Below are positions 1-21,718 of a stretch of 21,718 nucleotides of DNA, piece after piece. The stretch's first letter is position 1, and each line of letters begins with the position of its first letter. A program made the translations under genes and the position numbers. Source of the stretch: a virus; IMG/VR virus record IMGVR_UViG_3300036806_000130, positions 1-21,718 of that record. One strand, written 5' to 3'. The notes below the pieces were generated by a model. It searched no databases, had not been told where the DNA came from, and saw only the letters and a list, made by a program, of their open reading frames with translations.

Positions 1-59
1 AGGCCGAACAGCGCGAGGCCGAACATGGCCCAGAGCGTGGCGAGCTGCCATCCGGTCAC
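1..59 (-). CDS. Partial small membrane protein, N-terminus only
   Basis: A GTG start at 59-57 overlaps the TGA of the upstream gene (GTGA). The frame stays open to the window edge and begins MTGWQLATLWAMFGLALFG, a hydrophobic stretch that fits the start of a membrane segment. The tight overlap matches the coupling used throughout this operon, which is the main reason to accept it. Only about 19 residues are visible, so no family can be named. Confidence 0.5.
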   Translation of the reverse strand, partial: MTGWQLATLWAMFGLALFG

Positions 60-319
60 GGCCCCTCCCGGCCGTTCAGGTCCGCGTCGGCGGTGAGCAG
101 CACCGCCGTGATCCGGTCGAGGTTCTCAGCGATGGAGACGAGCGCCATGAACGACGCCATCTGTGCGGCCTCGAATTGCGCTTTGCCCGCGCCGGGGCTG
201 TGCGGCTCGCGGGCGGCGATGTAGGACACGGTCGACGCCCAGTCTCGGGCCATGGCCAGCGGCCCCGGCAGGTCGGGCCCCGGCGTGATGAGCGCCCCGG
301 CCTCGGGCTCGGCGGTCAC
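56..319 (-). CDS. Small hypothetical protein (87 aa)
   Basis: I do not recognise this protein. It starts with GTG at 319, overlapping the TGA of the previous gene in a GTGA junction, and its own stop overlaps the start of the next gene. The N-terminal third is rich in Pro and Gly; the rest (about residues 25-80) looks helical, with an Ala-rich stretch that ends in a Leu/Ile/Val-rich helix. There is no clear signal peptide or membrane segment. It lies at the distal end of the recombination operon among other small unknown genes. The coding call rests on codon bias and on the overlaps at both ends. Confidence 0.6.
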   Translation of the reverse strand: MTAEPEAGALITPGPDLPGPLAMARDWASTVSYIAAREPHSPGAGKAQFEAAQMASFMALVSIAENLDRITAVLLTADADLNGREGP

Positions 320-693
320 TTCCCGGCCTCCTTGCCCGTGTCGGGCTCGTCGGGGTCGACCGGGCTGTCGGGCTCGCGCATGGCGTCGAACGCCTTGCGG
401 ATCTCGTCCTCCAGCTCAAACTCCAGGGTCGTCTGTCCCGAGTCGAATTCGACCGACCGGCGCAGCATCGCCTCGGCCTGGTCGAGGTCTTGCGGCAGCA
501 GCCGGGCCACGCGGCGGATTCTCACGGTGATGACCTTGTCGTCCAGGTCGTAGTCCTCGGTGCCGCGCTTGCAGTCGAACACGATCATCGCGGCGCGGAG
601 CTGGCGCGGGTTCTTGGCCAGCTCGTCGGCGATCGTGGCGAGGCCGTTTGCCTCGCCCCTGGGTAGCAGCGCTTGGCCTTTCACGTCAGGCAT
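316..693 (-). CDS. Hypothetical phage protein with acidic tail (125 aa)
   Basis: Function unknown. The protein has a soluble alpha/beta look: a helix near residues 18-38, two or three strands between about 37 and 62 (AAMIVFDCKR, DKVITVRIRR), then a region ending in the acidic pattern ELEDEI near 108 and a C-terminal Asp/Glu/Pro tail. Its ATG at 693 lies inside the end of the upstream gene (8-base overlap) and its stop overlaps the downstream GTG start. Position just after the annealing-protein gene suggests a role in phage DNA metabolism, but that is inference from context only. Confidence 0.65.
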   Translation of the reverse strand: MPDVKGQALLPRGEANGLATIADELAKNPRQLRAAMIVFDCKRGTEDYDLDDKVITVRIRRVARLLPQDLDQAEAMLRRSVEFDSGQTTLEFELEDEIRKAFDAMREPDSPVDPDEPDTGKEAGK

Positions 694-925
694 GGTGTTT
701 CCCTTCTAGCGGGGGTGGGGCCAGCCGCGAGTTCACGGCGGCTATAGCGGCTTCCTGGGCGGCCAGCAGCTCCCCGGTACCGAGCCCCCGGCCGTGGTCG
801 TAGGCGGCGTACACGGCCCGCTGTAGCGGCTTGGGGACCATCGCCCAGTGGTCCCCGCACATCAGGAACCGCATGGCGATCTGGGCGATGCACTGCCCTG
901 CCGGGCAGCGGTGGGTCTCGGGCAT
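686..925 (-). CDS. Small putative zinc-binding protein (79 aa)
   Basis: The N-terminus carries C7-x4-C12-x10-C23-x2-H26, a plausible single zinc site, followed by a conserved-looking basic stretch (MVPKPLQRAVYAAYDHGRG). Similar small Cys/His proteins are common in actinobacterial phages and integrative elements and are usually unannotated. The start at 925 is supported by AGGAG eight bases upstream. It overlaps the end of the upstream gene by 64 bases and the start of the downstream gene by 8 bases. Zinc binding is inferred from the ligand spacing; a structural, DNA-binding or nuclease-related role are all possible. Confidence 0.65.
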   Translation of the reverse strand: MPETHRCPAGQCIAQIAMRFLMCGDHWAMVPKPLQRAVYAAYDHGRGLGTGELLAAQEAAIAAVNSRLAPPPLEGKHHA

Positions 926-1086
926 GGCGGGGGCTCCTGGGTGGCGATGATGCGGGCGCGCAGCTCGGGCAGCCCGTGGGCGGGTTCGATCAGGTCGGCC
1001 GCGGCGTGCAGCTCGGCGCGGACGCGGGCGGCGAACCGGGACCGGCCGCCTGGCGGGCCGGTGATGCGCGGGCGGCGGTGCTTCAC
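862..1086 (-). CDS. Small basic hypothetical protein (74 aa)
   Basis: Not recognised. The GTG start at 1086 overlaps the TGA of the upstream gene (GTGA). Residues 1-25 are strongly basic (MKHRRPRITGPPGGRSRF) and residues 20-50 look helical. The last roughly 20 codons overlap the start of the zinc-binding gene in another frame and have low-complexity composition, so the functional part is probably the first 50 residues. The long 64-base overlap is unusual beside the 4-base overlaps elsewhere and lowers confidence in the C-terminal end; a frameshift near 925 is another explanation. Confidence 0.45.
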   Translation of the reverse strand: MKHRRPRITGPPGGRSRFAARVRAELHAAADLIEPAHGLPELRARIIATQEPPPCPRPTAARQGSASPRSPCGS

Positions 1087-1334
1087 GGGAACTCGAGTTC
1101 CCGCGGGTCGTCGGGGACCAGGCCGCCGTCGTAGTGGGCGCGGTGGTCGGTGAGCTGGGCGGTCAGCTGCCGGTTCATGGCGATCAGGTGCTTGCGCTGG
1201 GCGTGCAGCTCGCGGACCTCGGCGATCAGGTCGGCTACGTCCTCGGGCCGCAGCGCCGGGCGGTCGTCGTAGCAGAATGCCAGCTCGGCCCGCCGTGCGA
1301 TGCCGGCCAGCTCGGCGTCAGTCAGGTTCCGCAT
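1083..1334 (-). CDS. Small helical protein, possible coiled coil (83 aa)
   Basis: Unknown function. The ATG at 1334 has a good GAGGAG ribosome site seven bases upstream and overlaps the end of the RecT-like gene by 17 bases. The body is mostly helical with heptad-like spacing from about residue 35 to 65 (DLIAEVRELHAQRKHLIAMN), consistent with a short coiled coil. The C-terminus is acidic and Pro-rich. Being coupled directly behind the annealing protein, it could be a small accessory partner, but nothing in the sequence proves it. Confidence 0.65.
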   Translation of the reverse strand: MRNLTDAELAGIARRAELAFCYDDRPALRPEDVADLIAEVRELHAQRKHLIAMNRQLTAQLTDHRAHYDGGLVPDDPRELEFP

Positions 1335-2382
1335 CGGGCGGCTCCTCGGGGGGCTCGGCGGGGTCGGCGGCCTCGGCGGCGGGGTCGGCGGAATGGTCGC
1401 CGTTCTGGTGAGCGCCCAGCTTGAGCAGGGCGTCGAGCCGCTCGATCGCGGTGATGGCCTCCTCGGGCGTCAGGTCGTTGGTCGACGCGACGGCGCGGCC
1501 CAGCCACGCGCTGAGCAGCCCCAGCACCTCCTCGCGGCTGGTGAACCCGAGGTCGCGCAGGCTGGCCAGGATGCGGGTCCGCGCCTTGGCCGTCAGCCGG
1601 GGCTCGACCCGCTGGGGCTCCTGGGGAACGGGCGCGGCCGGGGGCGCGGGCTCGGGCGCGGGCGGCATGGTGGCCGCTGGCAGCGCGACCCGTGCGGCCG
1701 GGGTCTTGCGCTTGGTGGTGGCGGGCTTGGCCGCTGACACCTCGGCGGCGGGTTGCACGGTGGCGGCCGAGCCGACCTCCAGCGCGGGCACCACGCCGTC
1801 GACGTTCTCCTCCAGCTCCTCGGCCATCACCGGCAGGCCGAGCATCGCGTCGGCCGCGACCCAGCGGGATGCCTCGGCGGTCGCCCGCGCTACGAGCATC
1901 GCCTTGGTCTGCGTTCGCCAGTTGGAGTACTCAGTGCCGGGAAACAGCTTGGCCGTGCGGGCGCGGTCGAGGTCCCAGGTCGAGGTCTGCCACTCCCCGC
2001 CAGCGCGGCGGCCGATCACCACGGCCCGCTGGCTGGTGGACTCCTTGACGATGATCTCGTGGCCGCGCTGTAGCAGCAGGGCGCGGGCAGCGAGGGCGTA
2101 CAGCCCGACCGTGCCCTTGATGATCGTGATCGAGCGCAGCGAGGCCATCGGCCCGAACCCCAGCTCCTGGCCCGCGAGCAGCACGGCGGTCACGGTGGCC
2201 ACCGTCCCGTCGTAGTCGAGTTGCCGCTGCTCGGGCTTGGCGTTGGGATTGGTATAGCGCCTGAGCTGCTCTGGCACGAACGGCGTGCCCGCCAGGGCCT
2301 TGGCGATCCCGGCCGCGGCCTCGGCCTCCTCGGCCCAGGCGCGCAGCGACACGGCAGCGGCATATTCTCCCGGTCGTCCCAT
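1318..2382 (-). CDS. RecT-like single-strand annealing protein
   Basis: This resembles the actinophage RecT-type recombination proteins that coat single-stranded DNA and anneal it to complementary strands. The recognisable core is residues 1-200: GQELGFGPMASLRSITIIKG, then VGLYALAARALLLQRGHEI, then a beta-rich part, then WRTQTKAMLVARATAEASRW, which is the typical layout of the family. The C-terminal 150 residues are an Ala/Pro/Glu-rich linker and a short helical domain. The exonuclease gene lies immediately upstream, as expected for a RecE/RecT-like pair. I place the start at ATG 2382 (354 aa), where TGATG couples it to a ten-codon leader. A longer in-frame ATG at 2427 (369 aa) has no ribosome site and its own first bases are the GGAGG sequence. 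Confidence 0.75.
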   Translation of the reverse strand: MGRPGEYAAAVSLRAWAEEAEAAAGIAKALAGTPFVPEQLRRYTNPNAKPEQRQLDYDGTVATVTAVLLAGQELGFGPMASLRSITIIKGTVGLYALAARALLLQRGHEIIVKESTSQRAVVIGRRAGGEWQTSTWDLDRARTAKLFPGTEYSNWRTQTKAMLVARATAEASRWVAADAMLGLPVMAEELEENVDGVVPALEVGSAATVQPAAEVSAAKPATTKRKTPAARVALPAATMPPAPEPAPPAAPVPQEPQRVEPRLTAKARTRILASLRDLGFTSREEVLGLLSAWLGRAVASTNDLTPEEAITAIERLDALLKLGAHQNGDHSADPAAEAADPAEPPEEPPDAEPD

Positions 2383-10304: not shown

Positions 10305-10922
10305 CTAGACGGCGGGCATCAGGGCCGGGCCGAACCGGGGCGCGTGCTCGTGCAGCCGCAGGCTCGCGCCCCGCCCGACGCCGAGCACCTGAATGTCGAA
10401 CCACTGGGGCCGGGACCGGACCAGGCAGCGGCCGAAGATGCCGCGCTGGAGGATGACCACCTCGCGGAGGCGGAAGGTGCCGAACGCGAACGCCCGCGGG
10501 CCGACGACCACGAACCGGCCGAGCTGGTCGAGGCGGGCGGTGCACGACCCGGCGTCGACTACCGGCGTGCCGAGGGGCGAGTGGAAGACGTGGAACATGC
10601 CGACCGGGCCGGTCAGGTTCCACGTCGCGTCGGTCGGGCTGGTCTCAACGTCGGAGCCCCGGCCGCGCACCGGGCCGGTGGCGAACACGCTGCCGGGGTC
10701 GGCCGTGCTGACGTGGAGGATGAACGCCTCGGGCCGCAGCCGGAACCGGGCGCGATGCGTGGGCGTCGGGGCCGGGACCGGGGTCACCGACACGGACGGG
10801 GTGGGCGACGGGGTGACCCCGGCGCTGGCCGATACGGCGGTTGCGGAGACCAGGCCGAGGCCCATCACGATGGCCCCCCCGAGCGCCGCCAGCCGGAACC
10901 GCTTGCGCGATACGTGCGTCAT
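10305..10922 (-). CDS. Secreted protein with signal peptide (205 aa)
   Basis: The ATG at 10922 has GGAA eight bases upstream. The N-terminus is a classic Sec signal: basic start (MTHVSRKRFR), hydrophobic core (LAALGGAIVMGLGLVSATAV), likely cleavage after SASA near 34. A Pro/Thr/Ser linker follows (35-55). The mature part (about 58-195) looks beta-rich, with two Cys (SCTARL; GRCLVR) that could form a disulfide. The GPVRGRGSDV motif is faintly like an actinobacterial family of small secreted beta proteins, but I cannot name it. It lies beyond the lysis genes, has its own promoter candidate, and is probably an accessory gene that changes the lysogen's surface or surroundings. Confidence 0.7.
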   Translation of the reverse strand: MTHVSRKRFRLAALGGAIVMGLGLVSATAVSASAGVTPSPTPSVSVTPVPAPTPTHRARFRLRPEAFILHVSTADPGSVFATGPVRGRGSDVETSPTDATWNLTGPVGMFHVFHSPLGTPVVDAGSCTARLDQLGRFVVVGPRAFAFGTFRLREVVILQRGIFGRCLVRSRPQWFDIQVLGVGRGASLRLHEHAPRFGPALMPAV

Positions 10923-10974: not shown

Positions 10975-11024
10975 GCCCAAACCCTTTCACAGCCAGGTCA
11001 CAGGCAGGCGGCTAAGCCGCACGG

Positions 11025-11054
11025 ATTATGGAGGGCGACCGGCCCGCCGCGCAA
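11025..11054 (-). promoter_or_regulatory. Candidate promoter for the secreted-protein gene
   Basis: On the minus strand TTGCGC (11054-11049) and CATAAT (11030-11025) are separated by 18 bases; CATAAT matches five of six consensus -10 positions. Transcription would start near 11018, giving a leader of about 95 bases with two hairpins. Confidence 0.42.
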
Positions 11055-11271
11055 TGTCGACTACCCGCTGGAAGGCTCCCAGAGCGCCGTGGGGCCGCTG
11101 ACCGGCCTCTTGGGTACAACCACCCCGGCCAGTTCTGGGAGGGATTCCCGTTGGCCAGCGGCCTAATTGGAACAGCGGCTATCGAACACTTGCGGGCTCC
11201 GATTATGGGCGTGGGCCCGCGCCTGGGGGGGTTGACGCGGGCCGCACGACACCGGCTGACCCAGCAGCAGC

Positions 11272-12057
11272 CTAGCGGACGGCACCGGCAGCGGCCGGGA
11301 CCAGCGCCGAGACCACGCCGTCCCACAGCTGACGCCGCTCGGCCAGCGCCCCGGCCGCCGCGTCGCGGGCAGCGGCCCACCGGCCGGGGTGATCCCCGCA
11401 GAGCTGGCCGACCATGCGCAGCGCGGCGGGGCCGTGCTCGTCGCCGTCCAGCTCGATGTGGCGGCGCAGGTACTCGCGGAAGGTCGCCAGCTCGGGCGCG
11501 TCGAGCTGGTCGACGGCGCGGGCGAACATCGCCGGGATGACCTCCTCTCGGCTGAACGCGAACACCGCCGCCCGGCACCACAGCGGCTCGGTGGTCGAGG
11601 TCGACCAGGTGACGCGGAAGAACCGGGCGGCGGGCTCGGGAGCCTGGGCGCGGCCCACCGCGCTAACCGGGCTCGCGCCCTTGGCCAGCAGCCGCAGCAG
11701 CAGCCGGGCCGGGCGGGTGTCGGCCCCGGCCTGCTCCATCCCGAGCAGGTACATCTCGAAGTGCGACAGCACCCGCCCGTCGAGCTGGTCGCACTCCTCG
11801 GCCAGCACGATCTCGTTTATCAGGCGGCGGGTCGCGGGGTCGCCCCTCGGGATCCACGGCAGCGTGGTGCACGTCAGATCCCGCTGGAGGGACTTGAGCA
11901 GCGTCATGAAGTCGAGCACCGCGAAGACGTGGTGAGCCATGAAGACGCGGACGGCGGGCAGCGTGGTCAGGTGGTCGTAGACGGGGTGGCCGACGACCTC
12001 GGCGCGGGCCGGGGCGAGGTGCTCGGCCAGGTCGGTGATGCGGTCGAGCTGTGACAC
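11272..12057 (-). CDS. DUF3050 heme-oxygenase-like protein (261 aa)
   Basis: The sequence follows the DUF3050 family almost end to end: HPVYDHLTTLPAVRVFMAHH then VFAVLDFMTLLKSLQRDLTC, then NEIVLAEECDQ, SHFEMYLLGMEQAGADT, FSREEVIPAMF, and RRHIELDGDEHGPAALRMVG. The family is helical and predicted to share the heme-oxygenase fold that also includes diiron oxidases. Candidate metal ligands are E82, E87/E88, H99, E171/E172 and the D204-x3-H208 motif. I start at GTG 12057 because AGGAGG lies five bases upstream; a longer frame to 12126 has no site. A likely enzyme of host-type metabolism, it is unexpected right after the lysis genes and looks like an accessory (moron) gene. Substrate unknown. Confidence 0.85.
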   Translation of the reverse strand: MSQLDRITDLAEHLAPARAEVVGHPVYDHLTTLPAVRVFMAHHVFAVLDFMTLLKSLQRDLTCTTLPWIPRGDPATRRLINEIVLAEECDQLDGRVLSHFEMYLLGMEQAGADTRPARLLLRLLAKGASPVSAVGRAQAPEPAARFFRVTWSTSTTEPLWCRAAVFAFSREEVIPAMFARAVDQLDAPELATFREYLRRHIELDGDEHGPAALRMVGQLCGDHPGRWAAARDAAAGALAERRQLWDGVVSALVPAAAGAVR

Positions 12058-12110
12058 GGGGGCCTCCTGGGGACGACGCGCTGTACGCGCTTGTAAGGGG
12101 CTGGGGGGCA

Positions 12111-12145
12111 CTGCCCACCCAACCACCCATGGGGGCCGTGGGCAG
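12111..12145. other. Hairpin between the lysis genes and the DUF3050 gene
   Basis: CTGCCCAC (12111-12118) pairs with GTGGGCAG (12138-12145) over a 19-base loop, within the 122-base gap after the holin-like gene. It may end the late transcript before the accessory gene. The loop is long and there is no U-run, so support is modest. Confidence 0.35.
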
Positions 12146-12179
12146 CGTGGTGGCAGCTACTGGGGCGCGCTGGGCAGGG

Positions 12180-12317
12180 TCATGCGCGGGGGCTGCTGTC
12201 AGGGGGCTGGCCATCCCCGAGGCCCTTGCGGATCACCAGGATGGTGACCCACGCGGTGAGGATGCCGGTGGCCAGGTCCCCGCCGAGCGTCACCAGCACG
12301 ACCGCCCACCACGCCAT
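12180..12317 (-). CDS. Holin-like membrane peptide (45 aa)
   Basis: The ATG at 12317 shares a base with the endolysin stop (TGATG). The product begins MAWWAVVLVTLGGDLATGIL and continues with a hydrophobic run to about residue 29 (TAWVTILVI), then a basic-polar tail (RKGLGDGQPP). It could span the membrane once, or twice as a tight hairpin around GGD. Directly following an endolysin is the usual place for a holin, which permeabilises the membrane so that the endolysin reaches the wall. It is shorter than most known holins. The call is inferred from position and topology. Confidence 0.6.
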   Translation of the reverse strand: MAWWAVVLVTLGGDLATGILTAWVTILVIRKGLGDGQPPDSSPRA

Positions 12318-13096
12318 CAGGTGACCGGCGCGGTCCAGGTGGTGCTCCACGTCTGCGGGCCGACCAGCCCGTCGACGCCGAGGCCCTTTTCTGACTGGAA
12401 CTGGCGGCAGACACTCTCCGAGGCCGGGCCGTAAATCTGGTCCACGCTGATCGACCAGCCGCGTGAGCGCATCTTGTCTTGCCAGGTCCGCACGTCGCCG
12501 CACTGGCTGTTGTGGGTCTGCCCGAAGTAGTCGACGTGCAGCGGCGGGGCCGACCCGCCGCCCGAGGGGGGCGCGGTCGAGGACGAGCCGCCTGCCCATT
12601 CCAGCACCTTGTCCCACGGCCAGTTCGCGCCGGGGTCGGCGTGGCCGCACCCGGTCGAGCCGAGGTCGCCGTGGCCGCAGATCCCGGCGCTGCCGCCCTG
12701 GGCCTGGCTGGCGTTCAGCCGCTTGATCGGGATCCCGAGCTTGCCCGATTCCTCGCGGATCCAGTCCGCGATGTTGTGCAGCTGGTTGCTCCGGTTGTCG
12801 AGCCAATACTGGCGCGACCAGGAGGCGTAGCCGGATTGCTCGCAGCTCACCGACTCCGAGTTGTAATAGCACTGCGTCCACGCGCCGTTGGTCCGGGCGA
12901 CGCCCTCCCAGATTTGCCCCCGGTTGTTGTCGATGCAGACGTGGCTCGACGCGCCCACGTCGCCCTGGAAGTAGATCACGCAGTCTTTCGCGCCGTAGCT
13001 CCCGGTGAAGCCCTCCATTGTGTGGATCACCAGCAGCCGTTTCTTGCTGCCCCCCGAGTAGCTGCCGGTCGGATACCAGTGCCTAGTCAGGCTCAT
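12317..13096 (-). CDS. Endolysin: N-acetylmuramoyl-L-alanine amidase with PG-binding domain (259 aa)
   Basis: Cuts the amide bond between muramic acid and the stem peptide of peptidoglycan. Residues 1-165 are an amidase-2 (PGRP-like) domain: H25 in LLVIHTMEG, the core IWEGVARTNGAWTQCYYNSE, CGHGDLG at 140 and H152-A-D-P-G before WPW, giving the expected zinc His ligands (H25, H152, with H142 nearby). A Gly/Ser/Pro linker (169-186) leads to a C-terminal peptidoglycan-binding domain (187-255) with VDQIYGPASESVCRQFQSEK and VDGLVGPQTW. There is no signal peptide, so release needs the holin. It overlaps the small Pro-rich gene upstream by 14 bases. Confidence 0.92.
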   Translation of the reverse strand: MSLTRHWYPTGSYSGGSKKRLLVIHTMEGFTGSYGAKDCVIYFQGDVGASSHVCIDNNRGQIWEGVARTNGAWTQCYYNSESVSCEQSGYASWSRQYWLDNRSNQLHNIADWIREESGKLGIPIKRLNASQAQGGSAGICGHGDLGSTGCGHADPGANWPWDKVLEWAGGSSSTAPPSGGGSAPPLHVDYFGQTHNSQCGDVRTWQDKMRSRGWSISVDQIYGPASESVCRQFQSEKGLGVDGLVGPQTWSTTWTAPVT

Positions 13097-13368: not shown

Positions 13369-14427
13369 CTAGGTCCTGGGAACCAGCATGTTGAGATTCG
13401 CCACGCCGCTGCCGCCCGCATTGGTGTAGCTGTAGATGCCGCTCGTGGCGATCTGGAATCGGTTAAACGGGGTGCCCGCTGCTGGGGCTCCCGAGTTGCC
13501 GCCCGCCGTGTAAATCTTCGGCTGGCTCCCCGGGAAGGTCAGCGAGCAAGACGAGTCCAGCGCAGCAGGGAACGTCCACGTGTTAGCCGCGGTGAAGTGG
13601 AACATCAGGTCGAACTGCACGCAGTTGAGCGCCCCGATCAGCCGGTACCGGACCTGCGTATCCGACACCAGCCCCGAAGGCGAGCCAGGGTTAGTCGCGG
13701 TGAACCACGGGCCGATCTGGAGGTCAGCGGTGCCGGGGATGCCCTGGATGCCCTGCGGCCCCTGGATCCCCTGCGCCCCGGTGTCGCCCTTGACGCCCTG
13801 CGGTCCCTGCGCGCCGGTCGTGCCCGTGGTGCCCGTCGCCCCGGTGTCGCCCTTGACGCCCTGGGCGCCCTGCGGCCCGGCCGGGCCGGTCGGCCCCGCT
13901 GGGCCGGTGGCCCCGGTGGTGCCCGCTGGTCCCTGCGGCCCGGCCGGGCCGGGTGGCCCTTGCGGCCCGGTGCCGCCCCCGCCGCTGCCGGGGCTGTAGC
14001 TGACCGGGGCCGGGGTCAGCGTCATCTGCCCGGAGTAGGTCGCGTTGACCGGGACGCCGATGTGGCCGAGCAGGATCCCGCTCGTGCTGGCCCCGGCAGG
14101 CAGCACCGAGACGGTGAACAGCCCGGAGTCGGGGTCGGCGATCTCGGCGCGCAGCTCGTCGGTGCGGGCCGCCGAGCTGCCGCCCGGCGCGGCGTCGACC
14201 TGCAACGTCACGGCCGAGGAGAGCACCGCCACCGTGCCGTCGCCGCACGGCGCGATGGCCAGCCACCCGGCGTCGATGATGATGCCGAGCCCGTCGCCCG
14301 GCGAGAGCAGCACGGGCGTCACGATGCCGGTGTTATTGCCCGTCACCGCGGTGATCACCTGCCGGTCGTCCCACGCGGTGTAGCGGCCCGCCTGCCCCCA
14401 GCGCAGCAGCCCGGTCGGGGCGGTCAC
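13369..14427 (-). CDS. Tail fibre protein with collagen-like shaft (352 aa)
   Basis: Residues 1-140 form a domain shared with the preceding gene product ([20 protein letters not shown]..., [14 protein letters not shown]), probably attachment to the tail tip. Residues 154-234 are 27 uninterrupted Gly-X-Y triplets, a collagen-like trimer shaft. Residues 235-352 form a different C-terminal domain, beta-rich with Gly and aromatic residues, a likely receptor-binding head. The GTG start overlaps the upstream TGA. It sits where actinophages place fibres, after the hub and before the lysis genes. The host target cannot be read from the sequence. Confidence 0.82.
13726..13968 (-). repeat. Collagen-like Gly-X-Y repeat (27 triplets)
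   Basis: Encodes residues 154-234 of the fibre, from GPQGPPGPA to [17 protein letters not shown] occurs twice and GPA/GPQ triplets dominate, so the DNA repeats are internal duplications. Such stretches vary in length between related phages. Confidence 0.85.
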
Positions 14428-17459: not shown

Positions 17460-20404
17460 CGGGCACCTCCAGCGCCCGCCCACGCGAGCTGACGGGAGAC
17501 CGACGCGGCGATGGCCTGCTCAGACTGGCCAGCCTGCGGGTAGACATTGATCACGACGGGGGCCGCGCCGAGCCCCGCATGGCCGGCCGGGTGGCGGGTG
17601 AGCGGGCTCACCAGCTCGGGGCCACGCTCGGCGAACTTGTAGACCGTGCCGGTGTTGTGCCCGAACCCGGTCACGGGCTCGCGGATCACGCCGCCAGCGG
17701 CGAAGCCGAGCGCCCCGCCGAGCTTCTTGAGCGCCCCCGAGATGCCGCCGATGGCCACGCCGCCGATCGACTTGACGGCGTTCAGCGCCTTCTTAGGCAG
17801 CATGGCCACGGTGACCAGGCCGCGGCCCAGCATCGCGGCCAGCGCCTGCGGGAACCCGCCGAAGACCTGGTGGATGATCCCGCCGAGGTTGGCCTTGAGC
17901 AGCCCGACGACCAGGCCACGGATCAGGTTCCACCCGATCGAGATCATGACGGTCGACGGGGAGGCGATGCCGAAGAACCCCTTGACCGCGCCGATGATCG
18001 GGTCGACGATCGCGCCCTTGACCCAGCCCCCGATTCCCGAGATCGCGTTCAGGATGCCCTGCTTGATCCCGTTCACGATGTTGGCCCCGGCGTCGACCGC
18101 CGAGCCGACGATGCTGTTGAACCCGTCGCGGAACCGGCCGCCGATCTGGCCCAGCAGCCCGCCCGCTGAGCTGAGCAGCGACCGCAGGCCATTGACCACG
18201 GCATCGCGGATCCGGCCCGCGAACCCGCCCACGCTGGTGGCGATGCCCGACCACACCCGGAAGTAGGTGTCGCGGATCGAGCCGAGCAGCCCGGCCACGC
18301 TGTCGCGCAGGCTGGTCATCGCGCCGGTCACGGTGTTGCGGATCCGGGTGATGGTCCCGGTCACGAAGTTGGCGACCGCCGACCAGACCGAGAAATACGT
18401 CGAGCGGATCGAGGCGAGGATCGAGGCGATGCTGTTCCGCAGCCCGGTCATCGCCAGGAGCGCCCCGTCGCGCAGCCGGGTCACGAACCCGGTCACGGCG
18501 GTGAAGACGGCCGACCAGGTGCGCGCCGTGTTCTGGTAGACCGCCGACCAGGCCCCCGACACCGCCGTGCGCACGGCGGTGACCGCGCCTGCCACCGCGC
18601 TGCGGATCGCCCCCCACTTCTGGACGATCAGCAGCACGAGGTTGCCCATCCCGCCCGTCGTGATCGCCAGCAGGATCTGGAGCAGGCCCTGCCAGTGGTC
18701 CCGCACGAAGTTCGTCACGACGAGCACCACGTCGCGGATCGCCTGCCAGCTAGCGATGACGATCTTGCGGAAGGTCGCCGAGCGGGTCCAGGCGAGGTAA
18801 ATCGCGGCCGACAGCGCGGCGAGGGCCAGCACCACGATCCCGATGGGGTTGGCCAGCAGCGCGACGTTGAGCGCCTCCTGGGCGAACGTCCAGATCATGG
18901 TCGCGTTCTTGATGGCGAAGATCACGACCTCGGTGGCCACCACGGCGGCCCGCCACGCCTTGAGCGCCAGCGTCCAGGCGTACCAGATGGCGACCAGCGG
19001 CACGATGTAGGGCAGCAGCACGGCGAGGATGTTGGCCAGCGCGGTGATGGCCGGGACCAGCGGGGTGATCACGTGCAGGGCGGCCAGCAGCACGACGGTC
19101 AGCGCCGGGACCAGCGGCAGCACGGCGTTGAGCCCGGCCGCGAGCAGGGTGGCGAACACCTGCCCGAGCTGGGCGACGATGGGCATGAGCGCCTTCATCA
19201 CGGGGGCCAGCGCGCCCGCCACGGTGGCGGCGAGCTGCCCGAGCGCCTTGCGGGCGTCGGGGCTGGTCAGCGCCAGGGCGGCCAGCGCGGAGACCACGAT
19301 CCCGATGGGGCCGCCGAGCCCGGCGAACATCTCGCCGACGACGGGGATCTTGGTGAGGAACTGGCCGCCAGCGAACGCGGACAGGGCGGCCCCGATGGAC
19401 GCGATCTCGGGGGCGAATTTCCCGATGGCGTCGGACATGCCGTTGAGCTGGCCGGGCTTGAGGGTGGCGATCCATTTCGCTGACAGGTTGATGACCTGGG
19501 TGAAGGGGGCGAGGATCTTGGCGGCGGCGTCGCCTACGGCCTTGAGCACGGGGGCCAGCGCCCCGCCCGGCGCGAGGGCGTCCTTGAGCCCGCGGGCCAT
19601 CTTCCCGATGGAGACGATCAGCGGGCCGAAGCTCTTGAGCAGCTGTTCCCCGAGGCTGACCTGTATGTCGTGCGCCAGCCGGGGGAAGCTGGCCAGCACC
19701 CGCGCCGGGTCGTTCAGCGTCGCCGCCCAGGCCCCGGCGATGTGCTGCCCGGACTCCATGACGGCGTTCATGATGGCCTGCGACCGCTGAGCCCCGGTCA
19801 GCTTGGAGGCGGTCGTGCCGATCGACTCGGCGTAGGTCTTGAATGCGTCCTTGGTGTTGACGACGAGCCCGGCCTGCCGCAGGATCCGGGTGTTCCCGGT
19901 GGAGACCGACCGGGTGATCAGCTCCATCACGTCGGACACGCTCTTACCCGAGATCACCGATGCGTTCTGGGCGACGGTCGACAGCTTCACGGCGTTCGCC
20001 AGGCCGAGGTGCTCCTTGACGAAATCCGTCGTGACCGAGGTCGCGGCCTCCACGGTCAGGCCCTGCTTGCGCAGCGCCTCCACGGTCCCCTGCACGGCAG
20101 CGGTCGAGAGCCCGTTGGCGTGGGCGACGGCGCTGAGCGCCGTGCGCATCTTGTCGACGTTGGCCGCGACCTTGATCGACTTGGCCGCGAACGCGGTAGC
20201 CGCCAGGGTCGCGGTGCCCAGCGTGGTGGCAAGGCCCTTCCCGATCGAGCCGGTCGCCCGCCCGATCCCGGCCGAGATCCGCTGACCCATGGTGCGCCCG
20301 GCGTCGTTGCCCGCCTTGACCGCATCGGCGTGGACTTTCTGCGTCAGCGGCCCGGTGTCGCCCGTGACGCGGACCAGCAGCCCGCCGTAGCTGTAGTTAG
20401 CCAT
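17456..20404 (-). CDS. Tape measure protein (982 aa)
   Basis: Sets tail length and guides DNA ejection. The N-terminus is typical (VRVTGDTGPLTQKVHADAVK, AGNDAGRTMGQRI, then AAKSIKVAANVDKMRTALSA). The middle (about 330-560) contains several hydrophobic segments that could cross a membrane during ejection (ALAALALTSPDA, VAIWYAWTLALKAW). Residues 629-760 are three 44-residue repeats. The C-terminus ends with FAAGGVIREPVTGF and the ERGPELVSPLTRH motif common in actinophage tape measures. There is no lytic transglycosylase or peptidase motif. By the usual rule of about 1.5 angstroms per residue, tail length would be near 150 nm. Confidence 0.93.
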   Translation of the reverse strand: MANYSYGGLLVRVTGDTGPLTQKVHADAVKAGNDAGRTMGQRISAGIGRATGSIGKGLATTLGTATLAATAFAAKSIKVAANVDKMRTALSAVAHANGLSTAAVQGTVEALRKQGLTVEAATSVTTDFVKEHLGLANAVKLSTVAQNASVISGKSVSDVMELITRSVSTGNTRILRQAGLVVNTKDAFKTYAESIGTTASKLTGAQRSQAIMNAVMESGQHIAGAWAATLNDPARVLASFPRLAHDIQVSLGEQLLKSFGPLIVSIGKMARGLKDALAPGGALAPVLKAVGDAAAKILAPFTQVINLSAKWIATLKPGQLNGMSDAIGKFAPEIASIGAALSAFAGGQFLTKIPVVGEMFAGLGGPIGIVVSALAALALTSPDARKALGQLAATVAGALAPVMKALMPIVAQLGQVFATLLAAGLNAVLPLVPALTVVLLAALHVITPLVPAITALANILAVLLPYIVPLVAIWYAWTLALKAWRAAVVATEVVIFAIKNATMIWTFAQEALNVALLANPIGIVVLALAALSAAIYLAWTRSATFRKIVIASWQAIRDVVLVVTNFVRDHWQGLLQILLAITTGGMGNLVLLIVQKWGAIRSAVAGAVTAVRTAVSGAWSAVYQNTARTWSAVFTAVTGFVTRLRDGALLAMTGLRNSIASILASIRSTYFSVWSAVANFVTGTITRIRNTVTGAMTSLRDSVAGLLGSIRDTYFRVWSGIATSVGGFAGRIRDAVVNGLRSLLSSAGGLLGQIGGRFRDGFNSIVGSAVDAGANIVNGIKQGILNAISGIGGWVKGAIVDPIIGAVKGFFGIASPSTVMISIGWNLIRGLVVGLLKANLGGIIHQVFGGFPQALAAMLGRGLVTVAMLPKKALNAVKSIGGVAIGGISGALKKLGGALGFAAGGVIREPVTGFGHNTGTVYKFAERGPELVSPLTRHPAGHAGLGAAPVVINVYPQAGQSEQAIAASVSRQLAWAGAGGAR
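18125..18520 (-). repeat. Three 44-codon tandem repeats in the tape measure gene
   Basis: Repeat units start at TWSAVFTAVT, VWSAVANFVT and VWSGIATSVG, exactly 132 bases apart. Each has the Trp, then an R-I/L-R turn, then a helix ending near TYF or RF. The first two are close copies (both with SLR/GLR and SIRxTYF), while the third has drifted. Confidence 0.8.
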
Positions 20405-20813
20405 CGCTCACCACCACGCCGGGAATCGCGGCCAGCATCCGGGCGGCGTCGCCCCACGAGCTGGCCTTGCCCTCGCCCGGCTGTAGGGCCGCTGGGCCGC
20501 TCTGTGCGGACGGTGGGGCCGCTTGCCCCCGCTGGCGTGGCCTGGCCACCGGGCGGGGCCGGGAGGCTCCCTTAGCGCCGTTGGCGCGCAGCGTTACCCA
20601 GGTCAGGTCGGCCACGTGGTCGATCAGCACGGCGAGCAGCTCGGCCTCGGTCGACCACTGCTCGCCCGGCCTGCGGGCATACGGCGGGAGCCGCTCCAGC
20701 AGCACGTGCACCCGGCGCAGCGACACGGCCGGGTCGAGCACGTCCACGCCGTAGGCCGCGAGCATGGCGGCCTCTACGTCCGGGTTGAAACGAGCCGCTG
20801 CTGCGGCCTGGAA
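20397..20813 (-). CDS. Tail assembly chaperone 2, -1 frame extension
   Basis: The second tail chaperone frame, equivalent to gpT of lambda, translated as an extension of the first by -1 frameshifting. From the slippery site it reads FQAAAAARFNPDVEAAMLAA then YGVDVLDPAVSLRRVHVLLE and RLPPYARRPGEQWSTEAELL, ending 8 bases inside the tape measure gene. The ATG at 20765 is internal to this frame and need not be a start. The fusion would have about 244 residues (106 + 138). The middle is Arg/Pro-rich and variable. Such chaperones bind the tape measure and tail tube subunits during assembly. Confidence 0.82.
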   Translation of the reverse strand, partial: FQAAAAARFNPDVEAAMLAAYGVDVLDPAVSLRRVHVLLERLPPYARRPGEQWSTEAELLAVLIDHVADLTWVTLRANGAKGASRPRPVARPRQRGQAAPPSAQSGPAALQPGEGKASSWGDAARMLAAIPGVVVSDG

Positions 20814-21130
20814 TTTGGGAGGCTCACCCCGGTGGTATCGCCAGCCACCCGCTCGAACAGCGCCTCCAGCTCGCCCAGGTTGAGCCCGGCGTCGCGCAGC
20901 GCGGCGTATGCCTCCTGGCCGAGCAGGTCGGTCAGCGCCCCGGTCAGGTCACCCGACGCGAGGGCTTCCATCGCGGTCATCTCCCACTGCTTGACGGGCG
21001 GGATCGTGTAGCTCTCGCCCTTGTAGCGGAACGCGAACGGGACGGCCTCGGCCTCGGCTGCCGCGGCCTTGGCGGCGGCTTCGAGGTCGAACGGCTCGGG
21101 CGTGGTCCCGTTGCGCGGGTTGCCGCTCAC
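20774..21130 (-). CDS. Tail assembly chaperone 1 (118 aa)
   Basis: The gpG-like chaperone. The GTG start at 21130 overlaps the TGA of the major tail protein. It begins with an Ala/Glu-rich helix (FDLEAAAKAAAAEAEAVPFA), a strand pair (FRYKGESYTIPPVKQWEM) and helices (ALTDLLGQEAYAALRDAGLN, LGELEALFERVAGDTTG). In the zero frame only 12 residues follow the slippery site at 20813-20819 before TAG. Position between major tail and tape measure, and the frameshift, identify it clearly. Confidence 0.87.
   Translation of the reverse strand: MSGNPRNGTTPEPFDLEAAAKAAAAEAEAVPFAFRYKGESYTIPPVKQWEMTAMEALASGDLTGALTDLLGQEAYAALRDAGLNLGELEALFERVAGDTTGVSLPNSRPQQRLVSTRT
20794..20819 (-). promoter_or_regulatory. 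Programmed -1 frameshift signal (CCCAAAT plus hairpin)
   Basis: The heptamer C-CCA-AAT occupies 20819-20813 and is in the zero frame of the first chaperone (Pro105, Asn106). Five bases later GCCGC-AGCA-GCGGC (20807-20794) forms a perfect 5-bp hairpin. The -1 frame is then open to 20397 with a family-like sequence, while the zero frame ends after 12 codons. Confidence 0.85.
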
Positions 21131-21714
21131 CCGCTGCGGACGGTCGACTTGGTGGTGCCAGCGGCGGCACCGGCAGCCAGCGCCCCGGAGCCCGGCCCGA
21201 GCAGGATGGTCGCCATCACGCCCGCGTCGTCCAGCGCGGTGAGCTTGCAGTCCAGCGGCACGGCTTCCCCGCGCTTGAGCTGCATGTCGCCCGCGTCGCT
21301 CAGCGAGGCGCGGGTGAACCCGAGCCGCATCACCCGGTCAGCGTCGGCCGCGTCGATGGCGATGGCGTAGAGGTGCTGCGGGGTGTCCGACCGGACGGTC
21401 ATCGAGATCGACCCGTCAGCGGCCGGGGTCGGCGGGTCGGCGTCGAAGTACAGCCCCATGGTCAGCTCGTTGAGCTGCCACAAAATGAACTGAAGCGTGA
21501 TCGTCCGCTTGGTGATCACCGATCGCAGCGGGACCACCGACTGCCACGGGATCAGGTCGTTGCTGTCGGTCGCCTGGCCCACGGTCGGACCATCGTCGCT
21601 CAGATAGCCGAGGATGTCCCACGGGGTGGCGAACGGCGTGGAGGTGTCGGCCGGGAGGGCGGTGCCCACCGGGGCGAGATAGATACCGGGCCCGTTCGAG
21701 CTGCCGGTCTGCAC
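21127..21714 (-). CDS. Major tail protein (tail tube subunit, possibly 5'-incomplete)
   Basis: Forms the tail tube. The sequence NGPGIYLAPVGTALPADTST then PWDILGYLSDDGPTVGQATD is the usual start region of actinophage major tail proteins, followed by WQSVVPLRSVITKRTITLQF and QHLYAIAIDAADADRVMRLG with strand alternation, and a Gly/Ala-rich tail. The shown start is GTG 21714, but the preceding codon (GAG) is open and the window ends at 21718, so the true start may lie outside. The stop overlaps the chaperone start. It is the first visible gene of the tail module, and identification rests on sequence pattern and gene order. Confidence 0.85.
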   Translation of the reverse strand: MQTGSSNGPGIYLAPVGTALPADTSTPFATPWDILGYLSDDGPTVGQATDSNDLIPWQSVVPLRSVITKRTITLQFILWQLNELTMGLYFDADPPTPAADGSISMTVRSDTPQHLYAIAIDAADADRVMRLGFTRASLSDAGDMQLKRGEAVPLDCKLTALDDAGVMATILLGPGSGALAAGAAAGTTKSTVRSG

Positions 21715-21718
21715 CTCG

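Follow-up and report, generated by a model that had tools for sequence, protein, structure and literature searches.

A predicted diiron protein of the DUF3050 family in a high-GC phage and its candidate base-modification gene set

Why would a phage carry, behind its lysis genes, a gene for a heme-oxygenase-like protein of the DUF3050 family? The gene lies in a window of 21,718 bases (the whole stretch of DNA analysed here, which is an entire IMG/VR virus record with a GC content of ~0.72). The initial annotation regarded it as a chromosomal gene type, foreign to phage operons, that might serve lysogenic conversion or phage metabolism.

The locus and its phage

The virus is temperate, judging by its serine integrase gene, and its hosts are high-GC, probably actinobacterial, bacteria. 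Serine integrase, RecT and exonuclease genes lie to the left of the DUF3050 gene, with the endolysin, tail genes and tape measure to its right (Table 1). A small single-TM holin-like ORF stands between endolysin and DUF3050, so that the ORFs agree with the initial placement of the gene after the lysis genes, between a holin-like and a secreted-protein gene; plus-strand phage genes beyond the secreted-protein ORF converge on the minus-strand DUF3050 block. A longer alternative ORF begins at 12126, but both the Shine-Dalgarno sequence and the alignment fit a start at 12057. Between the window and contig L004, dN of DUF3050 (0.29) is below dS (0.66), which suggests purifying selection. The secreted protein has no family match in Pfam, PHROGs or NCBIfam; a conserved DUF3050/secreted-protein pair was rejected, the secreted protein of contig L125 showing only slight similarity (28% over 121 aa, E=0.001). 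The window also encodes a tail-fibre-like protein with collagen-type repeats.

Contigs L119 and L201, which like the window come from different samples, match its two ends almost perfectly and each other over 2656/2656 positions; all overlaps are flush with contig ends and join the three into a circle of ~39.3 kb. L119 continues from the window into capsid, portal, terL, terS and MazG genes, and L201 contributes ParB-like, guanine transglycosylase (TGT), FolE and SLOG genes. L119's left end is collinear with L004 just downstream of the TGT-FolE-SLOG block of L004, and L201 carries these genes where this collinearity had placed them. Because L201 and L119 overlap the window ends, the window phage holds the whole gene set discussed below. 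Near-identical contigs thus extend the window at both ends into a circle, and the DUF3050 gene is phage-resident rather than chromosomal; a prophage boundary at 12057-12180 is excluded by these overlaps and by the phage genes on both sides. On the circle DUF3050 lies ~23 kb from TGT. In relatives it sits beside terS, and the post-lysis position is peculiar to the window phage among those seen.

Table 1. Coordinates of features in the window and in related or compared sequences
Feature	Sequence	Position	Strand	Basis or remark
Left end of window	window	1-1607		1601/1607 identical to L201 1-1607 (reverse)
Secreted-protein gene, downstream of ~190-bp element	window	10305-10922	-	ORF
Conserved ~190-bp element, 3' of DUF3050, opposite orientation	window	11005-11240 (core 11025-11214)	+	copies in related contigs
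DUF3050 gene (HamA-like, predicted heme-oxygenase-like diiron enzyme)	window	11272-12057	-	261 aa; PF11251, AlphaFold2, invariant ligands
Shine-Dalgarno AGGAGG of DUF3050 gene	window	12063-12068	-	sequence; 5-nt spacer to GTG start
Endolysin (amidase-like, PG-binding domain), upstream neighbour	window	12317-13096	-	PHROG endolysin E=4e-23; PG_binding_1 1e-9
Tail-fibre-like protein	window	13369-14427		Gly-X-Y repeats, PF01391, E=6e-13
Right end of window	window	19525-21718		2191/2194 identical to L119 (reverse)
Element copy	L119	8110-8344
Element copy	L120	2594-2828
Element copy	L121	592-839
Element copy	L123	4306-4532
Element copy	L126	4889-5075
Element copy	L127	1830-2060
Element copy	L128	5351-5581
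Element copy	L201	5549-5729
Element copy	L205	6994-7168
Element copy	L206	3808-3938
ParB-like gene	L201	3949-4533
TGT gene	L201	5736-6542		phrog_887 1.5e-18, about first half of DpdA profile only
FolE gene	L201	6575-7198		PF01227 1.9e-39
SLOG gene	L201	7404-7904
Antisense IPT/TIG-domain or similar-looking gene	L201	5020-5499	-
Antisense IPT/TIG-domain or similar-looking gene	L126	10796-11278	-
Antisense IPT/TIG-domain or similar-looking gene	L130	1637-2596	-
DUF3050/radical SAM context, low-GC example	L155	6349-7926
DUF3050/radical SAM context, low-GC example	L159	2715-4493
DUF3050/radical SAM context, low-GC example	L138	5072-6214		also in kin
DUF3050 region, Mesorhizobium huakuii plasmid p_3	L195	172130-184786 of record

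Family, predicted fold and candidate metal site

The protein is a full-length, intact DUF3050 member, as first annotated: the PF11251 profile matches it over positions 2-233 of 233 with 277.5 bits (E=1.2e-82), far above the curated cut-off of 22.2, and it also matches phrog_34539 (9e-36). Its AlphaFold2 model (16 aligned sequences; pLDDT 91.7, pTM 0.88) is predicted to have the helical fold of the heme-oxygenase-like (HDO) superfamily. The best PDB match in Foldseek is HamA (9vwb; TM 0.87/0.91, 34% identity; phmmer 2.5e-47), whose entry is titled 'HamA, a Heme-Oxygenase-Like Enzyme' and is the only solved DUF3050 structure; a TenA homologue, UndA, CADD, HrmI and PolF follow. The model has no match below 1e-3 among the BFVD viral structures, and the protein none to known defence families.

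Ten residues of the window protein (E87, E88, D90, H99, R170, E171, R199, H200, D204 and H208) are invariant in 155-157 aligned relatives, among them H99, D204 and H208, which had been named from the sequence as metal ligands. Candidate ligands are E87/E88, H99, E171, H200, D204 and H208, and the six-ligand HDO pattern (E, H, E, H-x3-D, H) is present with E88 in the first place (E87 is also invariant), the assignment being made by analogy with SznF and PMC4520260 rather than from model coordinates. A CADD-like diiron site with the same ligand pattern had been predicted for DUF3050 in 2015 (PMC4520260). With this predicted fold and these ligands, the protein is probably an O2-activating diiron enzyme. 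The conserved Trp of a VWDFM motif (149/157 relatives) is Leu at residue 48 in the window and L004; this residue may line the active site and signal a substrate change.

Among characterised relatives, MgoB is a DUF3050 protein (PMC3298696) whose counterparts in the related, diazeniumdiolate-producing ham and pvf clusters are HamA and PvfA; N-N bond formation is the reaction proposed for HamA (PMC5878181, PMC11659414, PMC11705231). The window protein shares with HamA, MgoB and PvfA the Pfam family, the predicted fold and the HDO ligand set, but its gene falls in a separate clade and keeps company with FolE, TGT, SLOG and ParB-like genes. Neither an NRPS (HamD) nor an AurF-like N-oxygenase (HamC) or cyclase (HamE) was noticed in the ORF lists of three contigs and profile scans of part of their ORFs. 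The other HDO enzymes (UndA, CADD, SznF, HrmI, PolF) have the helical fold and the E/H/E/H-D-H ligand pattern in common with the protein, but at 12-17% identity in the structure search (SznF is absent from the matches listed), and the substrates known for them are not bases but small amines, acids or amino acids.

Companion genes, a shared element and viral spread

Read from its neighbourhoods, DUF3050 very probably belongs to a set of ParB-like, TGT, FolE and SLOG genes, which accompany it in the window clade, often together with MazG (near DUF3050 in L004, L125, L128 and L134). In L123, L124, L126-L128, L130 and L134, terS is followed by DUF3050 and an HTH gene, with terL next on those contigs that are long enough; upstream of these terS-type arrangements lie FolE, SLOG and a queuine-tRNA-ribosyltransferase-like (DpdA-like TGT) gene; L125 has the order MazG-DUF3050-terS. 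Elsewhere the genes are tightly packed, as ParB-TGT-DUF3050-FolE-SLOG (L203, L204), ParB-TGT-FolE-DUF3050-SLOG (L131) or TGT-ParB-SLOG-FolE-DUF3050 (L132), and further contigs read FolE-DUF3050-TGT-ParB (L129; the longer locus L212 adds an upstream SLOG match) and DUF3050-TGT-FolE-SLOG (L214). Gene order thus differs between backbones while the gene set stays.

The association holds in both directions. All high-GC DUF3050 contigs long enough on the upstream side (8/8) have both TGT and FolE. A comparison set of 21 records that are related by lysin or element but lack DUF3050, three of which (L119-L121) are fragments of the window phage or its kin, has FolE in 0/21 and TGT in 2/21. Conversely, FolE of the cassette type occurs on 16 contigs (at least 53% identity within the group, at most 36% to other viral FolE), with SLOG on all 16 and DUF3050 on 12 of the same contigs. 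The four others are L201, which is the window phage, its relatives L205 and L206, in which the post-lysis region is off the contig, and the 5.2-kb L202 (TGT-FolE-SLOG-terS). At 64 other viral FolE loci neither DUF3050 nor SLOG was found (0/64 each), and a TGT match was present at 49. Fisher's test of DUF3050 against cassette FolE gives p=3e-11, which is to be taken as a guide only because the contigs are partly near-duplicates (L211/L213; L208, L210 and L209 are near relatives).

This gene set recalls the phage 7-deazaguanine systems (FolE-QueD-QueE-QueC with DpdA; phages 9g, CAjan, Rosebush and Bipper), which likewise combine FolE and a DpdA-like TGT in one cassette, and the closest annotated relatives of the cassette TGT are DpdA-like proteins of mycobacteriophages. 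The window phage has the DpdA (TGT-like) and FolE components of that pathway. QueC and QueD, by contrast, were not found in the high-GC cassette records, where DUF3050 and SLOG appear instead: in searches of relatives other than L201, QueC was found in 0/18 records, mostly contig fragments, and QueD only in large low-GC records. The window-type FolE also forms a separate subfamily, and the window-type TGT is short.

A non-coding element of ~190 bp recurs around these genes, in several copies per phage. In the window, L123/L124, L126 and L127 it directly adjoins DUF3050 on the 3' side, and in L128 it follows MazG. L119, L120 and L121 carry it between their scaffold and capsid genes, the L121 copy being inverted, and L201 has a copy that immediately precedes TGT. 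In the DUF3050/TGT orientation its most conserved end reads CGGTCGC..TCCATAA(T) (in the window, CCATAAT at 11031-11025 on the minus strand), and in L201 ~12 nt separate this end from the start codon of TGT. This arrangement, with a -10-like CATAAT read by eye, suggests that the element is a promoter; sigma-70 promoter and terminator scans of the element region gave nothing. The element may be the unit by which these genes share control or move, a promoter-bearing shuffling unit. A coding function was ruled out, as no reading frame is open across all copies, and a structured RNA is unsupported (no Rfam match of note, weak folding z-scores, unfavourable covariation on both strands); blastn against isolated phages gave no match to the element. 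Genes for IPT/TIG-domain or similar-looking proteins lie antisense at element sites that differ from phage to phage: ahead of TGT, between scaffold and capsid, or behind DUF3050. They look like further shuffled cargo; of the three in L201, L126 and L130, only that of L201 was profile-tested.

How widespread are viral DUF3050 genes? In an alignment-based scan of IMG/VR, at least 118 contigs encode a relative, and these fall into high-GC phages (GC 0.60-0.74) and low-GC contigs (0.33-0.49) that look mostly aquatic and have a T4-type terminase among the neighbours. In a maximum-likelihood tree, 10 high-GC rows form one clade (99/87), within which the window groups with L004 (97/86), and 24 low-GC rows form another (100/99); four extra contigs join the high-GC group (14 rows, SH-aLRT 85). 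Both clades are virus-only among the rows sampled. With such clades and with sites in the packaging region or the cassette, the gene type is at home in phages, contrary to its first description as chromosomal. A recent pick-up from a host chromosome is disfavoured by the phage-only clades, with actinobacterial genomes under-sampled because the bacterial rows are the best matches listed from one genome scan (mostly Bacteroidota and Planctomycetota). HamA groups with Burkholderia/Robbsia/Thiodictyon plasmid genes while the window gene lies in the phage clade, a placement by which HamA orthology was rejected. The window protein and a second viral DUF3050 had no tblastn match in 50,697 phage records, so studies on isolates would miss phage DUF3050; the open-licence literature holds an incidental mention of DUF3050 in phages and nothing on the DUF3050-FolE-TGT-SLOG gene set.

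The low-GC proteins are also viral members of the family, but they form their own clade with other neighbours: a B12-type radical SAM gene flanks DUF3050 at 33/71 loci, mostly as the next gene, and a SPASM-type radical SAM maturase-like gene at 28/71, so viral DUF3050 has more than one context. In bacteria, the gene nearest the high-GC phage clade among the rows sampled is on a Mesorhizobium huakuii plasmid (L195), beside genes for two radical SAM proteins, an alanine racemase, a TldD-related peptidase and a P450, likely a biosynthetic cluster. Plasmids of Burkholderia glumae (L194) and Robbsia andropogonis (L196), which carry the closest HamA relatives among the rows sampled, share a conserved cluster of DUF3050, a hypothetical protein, an SDR oxidoreductase, a 'CoF synthetase' and MFS transporters; ham NRPS genes are not nearby.

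A possible role in base modification

What, then, might the enzyme do? We tentatively favour the idea that DUF3050 could act as the O2-dependent diiron enzyme in an alternative phage route of guanine/7-deazaguanine modification and, with equal caution, that the product may end as a modified base in DNA. The cassette genes would form one pathway: FolE, starting from GTP, would open the guanine nucleotide ring; the SLOG protein would free or trim a nucleotide or base; DUF3050 would carry out an O2-dependent oxidation at its diiron site, be it of the base, of the side chain of the base or of a precursor; the short DpdA-like TGT would exchange guanine in phage DNA for the product; and MazG would trim unwanted dNTPs. 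A likely use would be to shield phage DNA from host nucleases. DpdA phages carry 7-deazaguanines in their DNA that block restriction (PMC6884629). The predicted fold, the ligands, the two-way gene-set link, the virus-only clade and the DpdA-like TGT all speak for base modification. Against it, the match of the TGT to the DpdA profile covers roughly its first half only, and RNA is a possible target; FolE could feed folate or queuosine supply; DUF3050 is ~23 kb from the other set genes in the window phage, and L202 lacks it on 5.2 kb; and the low-GC viral clade keeps its radical SAM neighbours. A more specific proposal, which we hold to be doubtful, is a second, O2-dependent phage route to modified guanine, in which DUF3050 and SLOG would either stand in for QueD-QueE-QueC or attach an oxidised side group, and the short TGT would then insert the base.

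Alternatively, the protein could be a small-molecule enzyme akin to HamA, its best structure match, oxidising an amine or hydroxylamine for a diazeniumdiolate-like metabolite (signal or metallophore) of the lysogen, as HamA, MgoB and PvfA work in diazeniumdiolate clusters; FolE and TGT would then be a separate trait. Such lysogenic conversion would suit a temperate phage (serine integrase) and a gene that closes the late block next to one for a secreted protein. It is nevertheless unlikely: the phage genes fall outside the HamA clade, neither a gene of NRPS size nor any other ham partner was seen among the listed ORFs of three contigs, and the link to FolE, TGT and SLOG stays unexplained. In relatives, moreover, DUF3050 is co-directional with terS, terL and nucleotide/DNA modification genes, so that lysogenic conversion, as first suggested, is not favoured and takes second place to a part in a gene set for phage base modification. 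The other early suggestion, a phage metabolic gene, was roughly right, except that the evidence points to base modification and not to host metabolism.

The remaining readings are less probable. That the modified base from FolE and TGT goes to RNA (tRNA) or to a nucleotide pool and not to DNA, with DUF3050 acting within that route, would agree with the short TGT and its match to a queuine tRNA-ribosyltransferase PHROG, and other phages are known to supply tRNA or Q; the mycobacteriophage DpdA-like proteins as closest annotated TGT relatives, and a ParB-like partner that suggests DNA, make it quite unlikely. A protective or host-takeover enzyme, limiting oxidative stress or altering host metabolism during infection, would fit the MazG neighbours, a gene type linked to host nucleotide control. 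Its model would be the HDO-like DtpC of Acinetobacter, needed for peroxide control in desiccation (PMC13232832), but the likeness is by description only, the DtpC paper mentions no DUF, and the specific gene set would go unexplained, so that we regard this as improbable. Least probable by far is a chance passenger, a chromosomal DUF3050 picked up once and having no phage function. The site behind the lysis genes is a usual one for accessory genes, and 15 lysin- or element-related records lack DUF3050; yet dN is below dS, the ligands are invariant, and one phage clade spans several backbones with a specific gene-set link, by all of which a passenger is already contradicted.

Base modification thus remains the reading that we prefer, and if it is true, the phage protein would bring base modification into the HDO superfamily; to our knowledge, no such member has been described. 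Even in bacteria, DUF3050 is poorly understood, with one solved structure and a proposed role in N-N bond formation. Through its association with FolE, a DpdA-like TGT and SLOG in phages, the family acquires a second context that can be tested, and a new DNA modification may come to light.
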